DNA of 64,000 bases. It comes from Runella sp. CRIBMP (GTDB lineage Bacteria; Bacteroidota; Bacteroidia; Cytophagales; Spirosomataceae). The stretch spans positions 372,001 through 436,000 of the forward strand of contig NZ_JAAAKZ010000003.1 of assembly GCF_009905605.1 (NCBI RefSeq). Direction: 5' to 3'. The notes below the pieces were generated by a model, which was not told where the DNA came from, did no database searches, and saw nothing but the letters and a program-made list of their open reading frames with translations. Both the position numbers and the translations under genes were made by a program. The first letter of the stretch is position 1; each line of letters opens with the position of its first letter. Positions 40,225 to 43,499 of this stretch are shown here, one piece after another.

Positions 40225-40779
40225 TTAATTTAGCCGTGGGTCGGTGGGATAATGCGATTTGACCCGGTACTCTCCGCCCATTTTTCGTAAAACTGCCCTC
40301 CAAAATTGATCAACTGGGGTGTCAAAGATAAAGCTAGCATCCGTGTCGGATACAATCCAGGCGTTTTTGCTGAGTTCTTCGTCCAACTGTCCCGCTGACC
40401 ATCCTGAATATCCAATGAAAAAACGCAAATCTCGTTCGGTTATTTTTCCGACGTTGAGCATGCTCATAATTTGTTCAAAATCGCCACTCCAATATAAATT
40501 ATCACCTACGGGCACGGCATCTTCAATAAATGACAACCGATGAAGAAAATGCAATGTGTTCTGTTCGACTGGGCCGCCCAGATAAAGTGGCAAATTGGTC
40601 ACCACGGGCTCTTTCAGAACGTCGTTAAGGTGTAAATTGGTGGTTTGATTAAAGACCAATCCAAAGGTTCCATGTTCGTTGTGTTCGCACAAAAACACCA
40701 CGCTCCGTTCAAAATTGGGGTCACCCAAAGTTGGTTCGGCAATTAATAATTTTCCTTGGGCAGGTTTTAGCGGCGGCAT
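40225..40779 (-). CDS. YqgE/AlgH family protein
   Basis: 184 residues. Signatures are GKLLIAEPTLGDPNFERSVV, HGTFGLVFNQ, the LPLYLGGPV block and FFIGYSGWSAGQLDEEL. The family is widespread but its role is unknown; AlgH-like members were linked to alginate regulation. It lies 89 bp downstream of bioB on the same strand. Confidence 0.93.
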   Translation of the reverse strand: MPPLKPAQGKLLIAEPTLGDPNFERSVVFLCEHNEHGTFGLVFNQTTNLHLNDVLKEPVVTNLPLYLGGPVEQNTLHFLHRLSFIEDAVPVGDNLYWSGDFEQIMSMLNVGKITERDLRFFIGYSGWSAGQLDEELSKNAWIVSDTDASFIFDTPVDQFWRAVLRKMGGEYRVKSHYPTDPRLN

Positions 40780-40867
40780 TTGGTCCTGGTTCAGTGTCTC
40801 TTTTAGTGAGATAACGAAATAAAAGTCAAAAATAGTGGATTTTCAAGAACAAATGAGCACGTTGCGA

Positions 40868-41839
40868 CTAAACCGCTTCCAGTTTTTGTGCTTTGAAGGC
40901 AGGACGCGGCCTTATATTCAGGGTTTGAAACATCTCTTGGTCGGCATCCACATCAGGATTGGGGGTTGTTAGCAGCTTTTCTCCCGCAAAAATAGAATTC
41001 GCCCCTGCCATAAAACAAAGTGCCTGTTCTTCCATCGTCATATTGACACGGCCCGCCGAGAGACGAACCATGGCTTTGGGCATCAGAATGCGGGCCGTGG
41101 CTATCATCCGAATCATATCCCAGACCGATACGCGTTTTTGATGCTCCAGCGGCGTGCCTTCTACGGCCACCAGGGCATTGACAGGCACCGATTCAGGAGC
41201 CTCTGGAAGCGACGCCAGGGTATGAAGCATTCCGATGCGGTCGTCGTGGCTCTCGCCCATGCCGATGATACCGCCTGAGCAGGCTGAAATTCCCACTTTC
41301 TGCACGTGATTGATGGTTTGGAGGCGGTCGTCGTAGGTACGGGTCGAAATAATATCGCCGTAAAACTCCTCGCTCGTGTCGAGGTTATGGTTGTAGGCAT
41401 AAAGCCCAGCTTCTTTCAGTTTTTGAGCTTGGGTTTCGGTCAGCATTCCCAACGTGCAGCATACTTCCATTTCGAGTTGATTCACGCCTTTGACCATTTC
41501 CAATACTTTATCAAAATCGCGATTATCACGGACTTCGCGCCAGGCGGCACCCATGCAGAAGCGCGTGCTGCCCGCTTGTTTGGCGCGTTGGGCGGCACTT
41601 AATACTTCATCCACTTCCATCAATTTATGGGCTTGTACTCCCGTGTGGTACCGCGCAGCCTGTGGGCAATAGGCGCAATCTTCGGGACAGCCCCCCGTTT
41701 TGACAGACAGCAAAGTGCAGACCTGTACTTCTTGGGGGTCGTGGTGTTGGCGGTGAACGGTGGCGGCTCGGTAAATCAACTCCAAAATAGGAGATTCGTA
41801 AATTTCGCGTACCGCGTCTTTCGATAACGTAGGATTCAT
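40868..41839 (-). CDS. bioB: Biotin synthase
   Basis: 323 residues from ATG 41839; a TTG nine bases earlier is less likely. It is a radical SAM enzyme with the CxxxCxxC motif at residues 51, 55 and 58, which binds the [4Fe-4S] cluster, and the remaining family Cys and Arg residues around the second [2Fe-2S] site. It inserts sulfur into dethiobiotin. No other bio genes are present. It starts 14 bp after the PP-loop gene, in a unit headed by a cobalamin riboswitch. Confidence 0.93.
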
Positions 41840-41853
41840 CTTGCGCAATAACT

Positions 41854-42555
41854 TTAAATGGGCAACAAATCTGTAAAAAAATAAGTGGAAGTCAAGTCTT
41901 CTCCTTCGGTATTTTGGAAGTGATAGGTCTTCTCGACGGTTTCTCCTTTTTGAAAATCAATGGGTTGGGAGAAATAAGGAGCTTCAAAAACAAAGGTGTG
42001 AAATTCGCCGTTTTCGCCGCAGGGGTCGATATTGGCGGGCAATTCGCTGACAAAATCGCGGTCTAGCACGCGGCCACAAAAGGATCGGTCCAACACATTT
42101 CCGTTTACGCTGACGACGATGGTTTTGAATCCTAAGCCCCAAAATTCTTCCAGCAATTCCATCGAAGGACGTTTCCAGAGGGGAAATATTCCTTGCATTC
42201 CAACGGTCGCCAGTTGATTTTCGCGGTAAAGGCGCAAATCTTCCAGAAAAATATCGCCAAAAATGGATTTTGTGATGCCCGCGTCGGCTAGGGGTTGGAG
42301 AATTTGAGCCATACGGAGTTGATATTCTTCCATAGACGTAGTTTCGGGCAGGCGCAGCTTGAGCAGTTCGATGCCGAGCCGTTGGGCCTGTTGGTCGAGC
42401 AACTCTTCGCGCACGCCGTGCATCGAGATTCGTCGGAAGGAGTCGTTCAGTGAAGTCAGGAGGTAACGAACGTCGCAGGCTTTGTTTTGCAAACTATGAT
42501 ACAATGCCAGCGCCGAGTCTTTTCCTCCCGACCAATTCATGAGAGCCGTCTGCAT
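41854..42555 (-). CDS. PP-loop ATPase of the Dph6/MJ0570 type
   Basis: 233 residues. The N-terminal PP-loop SGGKDS (residues 9-14) and the [17 protein letters not shown] and [10 protein letters not shown] blocks match the ATP-pyrophosphatase family that includes diphthine-ammonia ligase. Bacteria make no diphthamide, so the name is misleading. The enzyme probably adenylates or amidates another substrate. It overlaps the upstream membrane-protein stop by one base (TAATG) and precedes bioB, all under a cobalamin riboswitch. Confidence 0.87.
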
Positions 42556-43145
42556 TATTCAGCAACGGCCAGTTTGGGAAAACGCATTTTCAGAACTTCA
42601 AAGCCGCCAAAAAGCAAGGCGCTATAGGCCAACGTACCCGCCAGAAAATTACGCATAAACGGCGCGCCCTGCGTGAGGCATTGTACAAACCCAGCCCCAT
42701 CGCGGGTAAGTGGCAGACCCGTGCGCACATCAATGCCACCGCTCAGCCACACGCTACCATCCGACAAGACCCAATGCGACAACGTGGCAATGACGGCGGC
42801 CAAAACGACGTTTTTGACGTTGATTTTTTGTAGTAACACTTTTCCGTAAAAAACAATCAGCGCAAAAATGCCGTATACCCAATACCAGCCCTCGTAGATG
42901 ATACCGTAGCGGCCTTGGTAAATGACGGCGTTGATGAGTAAATCGCTGATAAAAAGGGTGATGAGCGGAAAAGCAAAGGCTTTCCAACGGGTGGTGAAAT
43001 ACGCACCGCTAAACAGCGCCATCGCGCCAAGCGGTGTAAAATTGGAAACGGGCGAGAGCTGCGCCACGTTCAGAATACGAATCAGCGCGGCGGCCAGCAT
43101 AAAGCATAGCAACGTCAGCAGACGGGGGTTGAGGGTGTTTTTCAT
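42555..43145 (-). CDS. DUF6580-like membrane protein under cobalamin riboswitch control
   Basis: 196 residues with about five to six hydrophobic segments (LTLLCFMLAAALIRILN, WKAFAFPLITLFISDLLIN, YWVYGIFALIVFYGKVLL, VVLAAVIATLSHWVLS, FLAGTLAYSALLFGGFEVL) and a SNFTPLGAMALFSGAYF loop. I match it to DUF6580, a putative transport family. The riboswitch directly upstream makes it a candidate cobalamin-related importer, perhaps an ECF S-component-like protein. No ECF ATPase is seen nearby. Confidence 0.75.
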   Translation of the reverse strand: MKNTLNPRLLTLLCFMLAAALIRILNVAQLSPVSNFTPLGAMALFSGAYFTTRWKAFAFPLITLFISDLLINAVIYQGRYGIIYEGWYWVYGIFALIVFYGKVLLQKINVKNVVLAAVIATLSHWVLSDGSVWLSGGIDVRTGLPLTRDGAGFVQCLTQGAPFMRNFLAGTLAYSALLFGGFEVLKMRFPKLAVAE

Positions 43146-43168
43146 ACTATTTAAAAGAATAAAATCGG

Positions 43169-43202
43169 TTTAGCTGCGCATCCTCCGTGCGCGGCGACTA
43201 AA
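43169..43202 (-). terminator. Possible expression-platform hairpin of the riboswitch
   Basis: An imperfect stem, TTTAG...TGCG on one side and CGCA...CTAAA on the other, around a GAGGA-containing loop. It lies between the aptamer and the ATG and is followed on the minus strand by a T-rich stretch. It may be the terminator or ribosome-site sequester that the riboswitch controls. Confidence 0.5.
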
Positions 43203-43206
43203 TAGT

Positions 43207-43411
43207 TCATTGGGCAGGTCTCCTGACTTGTTTCATCGCCCTTGCACCTTCCCGATTTACGTTTGAAAATCAGTGGTTTATGCAGTTGTTAAGAGCGACC
43301 TTGGATGAAACTTACAGTTGCGGGGACAGTTTCCGTTTTGCACGGAATTCCCTTTTAAGCCGTCAAAGCCTGCCACGAAGCAGGCATGAGGCACCCAAGA
43401 CGAATACAAAA
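43207..43411 (-). promoter_or_regulatory. Cobalamin (B12) riboswitch
   Basis: The minus strand contains the B12-box type elements in the expected order: a GGGTGCC block, AAAAGGGAA, ACTGTCCCCGCAACTGTAAG, CCACTG, GGGAAGG, and finally AAGTCAGGAGACCTGCC next to the coding side. All conserved junction elements are present. It lies about 60 bp upstream of the DUF6580-like gene. High cobalamin is predicted to switch the unit off. Confidence 0.93.
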
Positions 43412-43414
43412 GTA
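43407..43414 (-). promoter_or_regulatory. Candidate -7 element of the riboswitch transcript
   Basis: TACTTTTG on the minus strand, at the 5' end of the aptamer, fits TAnnTTTG. No TTG at the -33 position is seen. Confidence 0.5.
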
Positions 43415-43499
43415 GGGAGAAGTCGGGAGTGAGGGGTAGGAAAGGCGGATTTATTTTTTGGGGAGGGGACTTAGTGTTTTTGAAAAAGCCCTTCTTCAA

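Follow-up and report, generated by a model that had tools for sequence, protein, structure and literature searches.

The window analysed here is a 64,000-nucleotide stretch of the genome of Runella sp. CRIBMP (contig NZ_JAAAKZ010000003.1, positions 372,001 to 436,000 of the forward strand), and positions below are those of the window. It contains a cobalamin (vitamin B12) riboswitch followed by a gene for a DUF6580 membrane protein, a gene for a PP-loop ATP pyrophosphatase and the biotin synthase gene bioB. The riboswitch and the three genes all lie on the minus strand; the first-pass annotation of this DNA gave no strand. A simple script was used to call open reading frames (ORFs), and gene labels were assigned by BLAST, with one member of each checked against Pfam or NCBIfam. 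G000 denotes the genome of the window, other G labels the compared genomes, and L labels the fetched loci. The elements are as follows.

43407..43414, minus strand: TACTTTTG, a -7-like promoter element matching TAnnTTTG on the aptamer's 5' border
43411-43196, minus strand: cobalamin riboswitch aptamer RF00174, from the Rfam covariance search
43176..43192, minus strand: GCGCACGGAGGATGCGC hairpin, between the aptamer and the DUF6580 ATG
42555..43145, minus strand: DUF6580 membrane protein, 196 amino acids (PF20221, 173.2 bits; cut-off, 27)
41854..42555, minus strand: PP-loop ATP pyrophosphatase, 233 amino acids, type PPA (PF01902, 133 bits; cut-off, 23.2)
40868..41839, minus strand: bioB, biotin synthase (TIGR00433, 407.8 bits; cut-off, 225)

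The complete B12 aptamer that the first-pass annotation had placed before the DUF6580 gene was recovered by the Rfam scan proposed there as a check. It scored 104.3 bits against a gathering score of 31.5 (E = 4.9e-25) over model positions 1-189 of 189, and this covariance score, for a full-length aptamer with its B12 box, makes it a member of RF00174. No other Rfam match exceeded the gathering score in the 64-kb window. The B12 box is present in all seven aligned Runella leaders, with one change in HJF.20, and TAnnTTTG, the -7 promoter consensus of Bacteroidota, was found in the same seven. ACGGAGGA, which lies 3' of the aptamer, is also kept in 7 of 7, and the GCGCACGGAGGATGCGC/ACGGAGGA hairpin may supply the L13 loop that, in the general model of cobalamin riboswitches, pairs with loop L5 of the aptamer. 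The 121 nucleotides from inside the aptamer to the ATG were not more stable than shuffled sequences (z = -0.42). A whole-genome search of G000 (7.13 Mb, 99.99% complete) revealed three RF00174 elements: the one described here, a second that precedes genes for a TonB receptor and a DUF5074 lipoprotein, and a third before metE. Judging from the aptamer, B12 would repress the operon of DUF6580, the PP-loop gene and bioB. In another genome, G151, a divergent riboswitch pair is formed by two oppositely oriented RF00174 matches with 47 bases between them (C13:10331-10798).

The genes are tightly packed. The DUF6580 stop and the PP-loop start have one base in common (TAATG), as annotated earlier, and the 14 bp reported between the PP-loop stop and bioB holds if translation starts at the ATG at 41839, with 5 bp left if it starts at the TTG at 41848. 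The three minus-strand terminator matches between 40100 and 43600 are all inside genes (AlgH, bioB, and DUF6580), and a terminator between the operon genes was rejected; terminator matches overall numbered 6, against 5.0 in shuffles. bioB may be cotranscribed with the two genes before it. The order riboswitch, DUF6580, PP-loop gene, and bioB is repeated in Runella aurantiaca, G168, Runella zeae, and Runella MFBS21, as well as in one Runella metagenome-assembled genome (MAG; L105, riboswitch by B12 box only), and this recurrence across Runella shows that the arrangement is not due to chance. Of the named genomes scanned, that of R. aurantiaca is the closest, with a PP-loop protein 95% identical to that of the window, and in R. 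zeae the PP-loop gene and bioB overlap by 4 bases. An AlgH/YqgE gene (40225..40779, minus strand) follows 88 bp past bioB with its own -7-like sequence, TATTTTTG, at 40834, and is probably outside the operon.

We propose, with a probability of roughly one half, that this locus is a Runella operon for vitamin scavenging that is repressed by B12. When adenosylcobalamin (AdoCbl) is scarce, the riboswitch would open the leader and the operon would be expressed. The BtuB-like TonB receptor under the second riboswitch would handle the outer membrane, and DUF6580, as a small S-component-like protein, would carry intact cobamide across the inner membrane. The PP-loop ATPase, which is of the DUF71-B12 type, would process this cobamide once it is inside, without any need for nucleotide-loop assembly. 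BioB, left after the loss of bioF, bioA, and bioD and relocated, would make biotin from scavenged desthiobiotin. It is plausible that environmental B12 signals a vitamin-rich community, in which both scavenging functions may be turned down together.

The biotin side of this proposal starts from the pathway genes. The bioB gene of the window is the only TIGR00433 match over the cut-off in G000. Neither bioA nor bioD was found in the eight Runella genomes, whereas both occur in 6 of 6 relatives. The bioF cut-off was exceeded in none of 14 genomes, including relatives that have bioF beside bioD; since it misses known bioF genes, bioF was judged by a tree and by NCBIfam. In the tree, which has 15 rows, support of 100/100 joins the six BioF rows of relatives that adjoin bioD, and all seven rows taken from the genomes of three Runella fall outside this group, and the best two BioF paralogs of G000 match serine palmitoyltransferase (736.7 versus 640) and glycine C-acetyltransferase (703.8 versus 493). 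Runella thus appears to lack de novo biotin synthesis. With bioA and bioD absent and bioF not found, BioB should only turn scavenged desthiobiotin into biotin, and Runella BioB should therefore be a salvage enzyme. That desthiobiotin rescues bacteria with bioB only has been shown experimentally (PMC9561691). The first-pass idea of a route coupling biotin and B12 status survives in this altered wording, with BioB as a salvage enzyme (bioA and bioD in 0 of 8 genomes, bioF not found in 3).

The position of bioB behind a B12 switch, which had been called unexpected, is indeed unusual. The gene was found over the cut-off in 22 of 29 genomes; G073, G127, G159, and G176, which belong to another genus of the same family, had no match. 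Eighteen non-Runella bioB loci were fetched, and in the 16 where the ORF caller recovered bioB, it always sits elsewhere, with no DUF6580, PP-loop, or AlgH gene within four genes. In 9 of these 16 loci a gene that we take to be SppA-like lies within three genes upstream. Within Runella, bioB exceeds the cut-off in five of eight genomes, always in this operon, and does not do so in Runella defluvii, Runella limosa, or HJF.20 (4.9 Mb, probably incomplete). The BioB of the window is 79.7 to 82.8% identical to the proteins of G029, G045, G059, G100, G151, and G190, and 65 to 70% identical to those of G086, G139, and G184, members of the same family in which bioB sits elsewhere. On these identities to relatives, taken without a tree, a recent import of bioB by transfer is not favored, and a move of the gene into the operon is the direction that we infer. 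G139 also holds a second bioB copy with one in-frame TAG (C4:29948-30871) beside a stop-free copy in the same genome.

This distribution also bears on the possibility that bioB is a hitchhiker, which landed here by rearrangement and either is transcribed from a promoter of its own or responds little to a switch that acts only on translation of the first gene. Its placement elsewhere in the 16 non-Runella loci favors that explanation, as does its absence from R. defluvii, R. limosa, and HJF.20, where the DUF6580-PP-loop pair is retained. Because bioB can be lost while the pair stays, the genes are not functionally inseparable. In addition, the PP-loop genes of R. zeae and MFBS21 contain -7-like sequences. 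However, bioB stands in the operon in six of nine Runella genomes or MAGs seen, with junctions of 5 to 14 bp or overlapping where looked at, and no -7-like match was found from 43406 to the bioB start, which counts for little at a frequency of 86 such matches per 128 kb. We regard hitchhiking as somewhat unlikely.

The PP-loop protein belongs to a class for which a link to B12 has been predicted in print. Its motif CGENGEFHT aligns with the ENGEF/YH signature of the DUF71-B12 subgroup, and ENGE[FY]H is present in 115 of 118 PP-loop rows, the remaining three differing only at N. That signature was tied to the subgroup, and a B12 link was predicted for it, by de Crecy-Lagard in 2012, with no reaction proven at that time (PMC3541065); the B12 link of the present enzyme was thus already predicted then. 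A Dph6 diphthine-ammonia ligase was rejected, with a TIGR03679 score of 91.1 against a cut-off of 197.3 and ENGEFH in place of EGGE/D-x-E, and a substitute corrinoid adenosyltransferase was rejected because PduO is present in G000. The first-pass conclusion that the PP-loop enzyme must have a job other than diphthamide synthesis is upheld, and both the published prediction and the gene contexts in relatives link that job to B12.

These contexts come from a scan of named genomes, in which the 80 PP-loop loci taken are the best 80 of 456 relatives. Eight loci (L112, L113, L114, L115, L117, L120, L122, and L123) were scanned with Rfam, a set that holds 4 of the 80, L113 and L115 among them, and the remaining PP-loop loci of the 80 were checked for the B12 box only. 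Two types occur among the 118 rows, PPA, to which the window protein belongs, and the shorter PPB, and they separate at 100/99 in a tree thinned to 56 rows (42 PPA, 13 PPB, and 1 other). In Arcicella aurantiaca and Pseudarcicella the two types are adjacent under a B12 box. PPA stands beside CobU in Flectobacillus, Spirosoma, and Roseivirga, and beside CobT and CobS too in Flectobacillus and Roseivirga spongicola, and in Emticicia aquatilis (L115) it follows a riboswitch-metE unit. A gene that clusters with the fused mutase IcmF lies upstream of the PP-loop gene on the same strand at 0.3 to 5.1 kb in 16 of 17 Chryseobacterium loci (split into three ORFs in one), and the member in L131 matches the fused mutase equivalog of NCBIfam (1738.7 versus 1500). 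More loosely, 10 of 19 Hymenobacter loci have a BtuF-like gene, or one that we take to be FecCD-like, 4 to 8 kb downstream, and the single Hymenobacter BtuF-like protein scored was below the BtuF cut-off. No such B12-linked neighbors were seen in the 16 loci titled Flavobacterium, and weak resemblances to BtuB or BtuF at L170, L179, and L180 were not counted as B12 context. The window PP-loop gene itself clusters only with the riboswitch and DUF6580; the wider clusters are those of its relatives. Between the riboswitch-metE unit and the PP-loop gene of L115 (5817-9699) lies a gene for a small protein with kin near PP-loop genes in L107, L113, and L128, which by its look we take to be a PAS/LOV-like domain.

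What the enzyme could act on depends on the cobamide capacity of the host. PduO is present in G000, so AdoCbl from imported cobamide should be possible. Per genome, PduO accompanies the PP-loop gene in 72 of 75 genomes against 86 of 119 others (P = 1.7e-5, a comparison confounded by kinship and small genomes), whereas CobS is indifferent to it (30 of 75 versus 40 of 119; P = 0.44). CobS, found in 70 of 194 genomes of the order, was not found in any of the three Runella genomes searched, where CobU, CobT, CbiB, and CbiZ were not part of the search. Without CobS, neither cobinamide salvage nor CbiZ-style remodeling should yield a cobamide, and precursor assembly or remodeling is therefore unlikely. 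The pair of DUF6580 and PP-loop proteins most likely serves intact cobamides.

The same finding weighs on two other roles for the enzyme. The published proposal of a CbiZ-like amidohydrolase, or of a role in pseudo-B12 remodeling, draws on the signature motif and the B12 gene clusters, and fits the colocation of CobU, CobT, and CobS in Flectobacillus and Roseivirga. However, a CbiZ substitute requires the nucleotide loop to be rebuilt by CobS, which the three Runella genomes lack, as do 45 of 75 PP-loop genomes of the order, and a cleaved cobamide would therefore not be rebuildable by the known route; we consider this role very unlikely here. The uptake of a cobalamin precursor followed by amidation or activation, as suggested in the first-pass annotation, agrees with the ATP-dependent amidation chemistry of the Dph6 family and with the B12 switch, but is not supported given the same lack of CobS and appears highly improbable. 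Amide repair of hydrolyzed corrin side chains, on the other hand, would be compatible both with the chemistry of the family and with the missing CobS. In such a caretaker role, Dph6-like amide-forming chemistry might re-amidate corrin side chains hydrolyzed in the environment and thereby make damaged B12 usable.

As FecCD/BtuC permeases are missing from all eight Runella genomes, DUF6580, with its weakly S-component-like predicted fold, makes a good candidate for the absent B12 importer of the inner membrane. Among the 194 genomes of the order, 33 carry PF20221, at 37 places in all, and 36 of these places were fetched (that in G120 is not included). The fetched order-level loci L040-L073 number 34; nine were scanned with Rfam and the rest for the B12 box only. 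B12 genes adjoin DUF6580 at 14 of 36 places in this search: in riboswitch-led operons in the window, L041, L042, L053 (twice), L060, L061, L064, and L069, and beside CobS, CobT, or CobC in L046, L049, L050, L052, and L058, with L057, whose riboswitch is about 7 kb off, left out of the count. Riboswitch-led operons of other genera contain DUF6580 and PP-loop genes together with those for a BtuB-like receptor, BtuF, CobU, CobT, CobS, and CobC. The BtuF-like proteins of two DUF6580 operons (L069:9685-10620 and L107:8034-8981) have no obvious signal peptide by eye. A tree of 50 DUF6580 rows contains a window-type group (support 87/94) that is in B12 settings in 21 of 22 rows; 14 of these rows came via the PP-loop search and are biased accordingly, and without them the figure is 7 of 8. 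FecCD was unmatched in 11 of 18 genomes tested (the eight Runella genomes, A. aurantiaca, Pseudarcicella [G200], and G045), all of which carry RF00174 and DUF6580, and genomes that have FecCD can carry DUF6580 too.

Two predicted structures of DUF6580 have pLDDT values of 90.2 and 93.3. With the latter model, Foldseek gave probabilities of 0.99 for RibU, 0.96 and 0.93 for PanT, and 0.82 for ThiT, the sole values above 0.5 among the 50 matches listed, and the first model gave two S-component matches with E values of 0.56 and 0.64. We take RibU, PanT, and ThiT to be S-component proteins of energy-coupling factor (ECF) transporters. The weak resemblance of the predicted fold to ECF S-components is suggestive, not proof. 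DUF6580 might instead import another ligand, such as biotin or desthiobiotin, and merely be coregulated by B12. BioY exceeded the cut-off in none of 14 genomes, the fold is S-component-like, and a second DUF6580 copy in G000 (C12:168263-168757, L040) has no B12 genes in the 17 kb fetched, all of which would suit such a role. However, relatives with both bioA and bioD carry window-type DUF6580 in their B12 operons, and it is kept in Runella genomes without bioB, and we hold another ligand to be quite unlikely. Kin of the second G000 paralog in related genera are in some cases beside CobC or CobS.

Several observations weigh against a B12-scavenging operon with DUF6580 as its importer. Across the 194 genomes, the presence of DUF6580 is not associated with the PP-loop gene (12 of 33 versus 63 of 161; P = 0.85), PduO (26 of 33 versus 132 of 161; P = 0.63), or CobS (16 of 33 versus 54 of 161; P = 0.11), and the case therefore rests on gene position and the window-type group. 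Only 19 of the best 80 PP-loop loci are near DUF6580, Cob genes, or a riboswitch-metE unit; a further 16 of the 80 are near IcmF. The four Foldseek matches have TM scores of 0.39 to 0.61 and weak E values of 0.14 to 0.70, and by sequence DUF6580 had no match to solved structures up to an E value of 10. The lack of FecCD/BtuC in all eight Runella genomes comes from a search that did not cover BtuM, ECF, or BacA. R. defluvii (L112) and R. limosa (L117) have the DUF6580-PP-loop pair with no riboswitch in front and no bioB. The neighborhood survey suggested in the first-pass annotation was accordingly divided: riboswitch-led pairs recur in relatives, and the pairs of these two species lack the riboswitch.

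The locus is real and is partly explained by published predictions. Literature searches found no paper on DUF6580 and none joining a cobalamin riboswitch, Bacteroidetes, and biotin synthase, and a broader search on riboswitch, bioB, and vitamin B12 gave a review of vitamin production and a paper on a Francisella genome. The searches turned up nothing in print on DUF6580 as a possible B12 importer or on a B12 riboswitch in front of an orphan bioB, nor on a DUF71-B12-type enzyme in a CobS-less host, at which no search was aimed. Most Bacteroidota use B12 without producing it (0.6% produce it and 96% use it; PMC6461909), and inner-membrane passage of B12 without BtuCD is described as an open question in many bacteria (PMC6072759). 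DUF6580 offers a concrete, testable candidate for B12 import where BtuCD is missing, and the presence of the DUF71-B12 enzyme in CobS-less genomes narrows its possible reactions. B12 control of an orphan bioB would tie the scavenging of two vitamins together. A more far-reaching version, in which DUF6580 proteins are new one-component S-component-like B12 importers replacing BtuCD in BtuC-less Bacteroidota, the PP-loop enzyme is a cobamide caretaker, and B12 shortage switches on the orphan BioB within a cross-vitamin scavenging regulon, is in our judgment unlikely as a whole.

Parts of the operon resemble known systems. As in the riboswitch-BtuB uptake loci of Bacteroidota, RF00174 in Runella precedes a BtuB-like receptor with its partner genes, but the Runella system is split between two riboswitch loci, and FecCD was not matched. 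A solitary S-component-like B12 transporter has a precedent in BtuM (PMC6072759), which is not named in the passages of PMC2667541 consulted. Like BtuM, DUF6580 is a membrane protein of about 200 amino acids with a near-invariant cysteine and a weakly S-component-like predicted fold, and both occur beside BtuB-like receptors where BtuC is missing. However, the cysteine is at position 156 in DUF6580 and at about 80 in BtuM, and BtuM is not among the 50 Foldseek matches listed for DUF6580. The PP-loop enzyme shares with the DUF71-B12 subgroup (PMC3541065) the ENGEF/YH motif and, in its relatives, neighborhoods with B12 uptake and salvage genes; unlike that subgroup, PPA forms its own group apart from PPB, with which it can share an operon, and the window type occurs in CobS-less genomes. 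Finally, Runella resembles the BioB-only "desthiobiotin auxotrophs" of PMC9561691 in keeping bioB without bioA and bioD and with bioF not found, and differs from them in that its bioB lies behind a cobalamin riboswitch.

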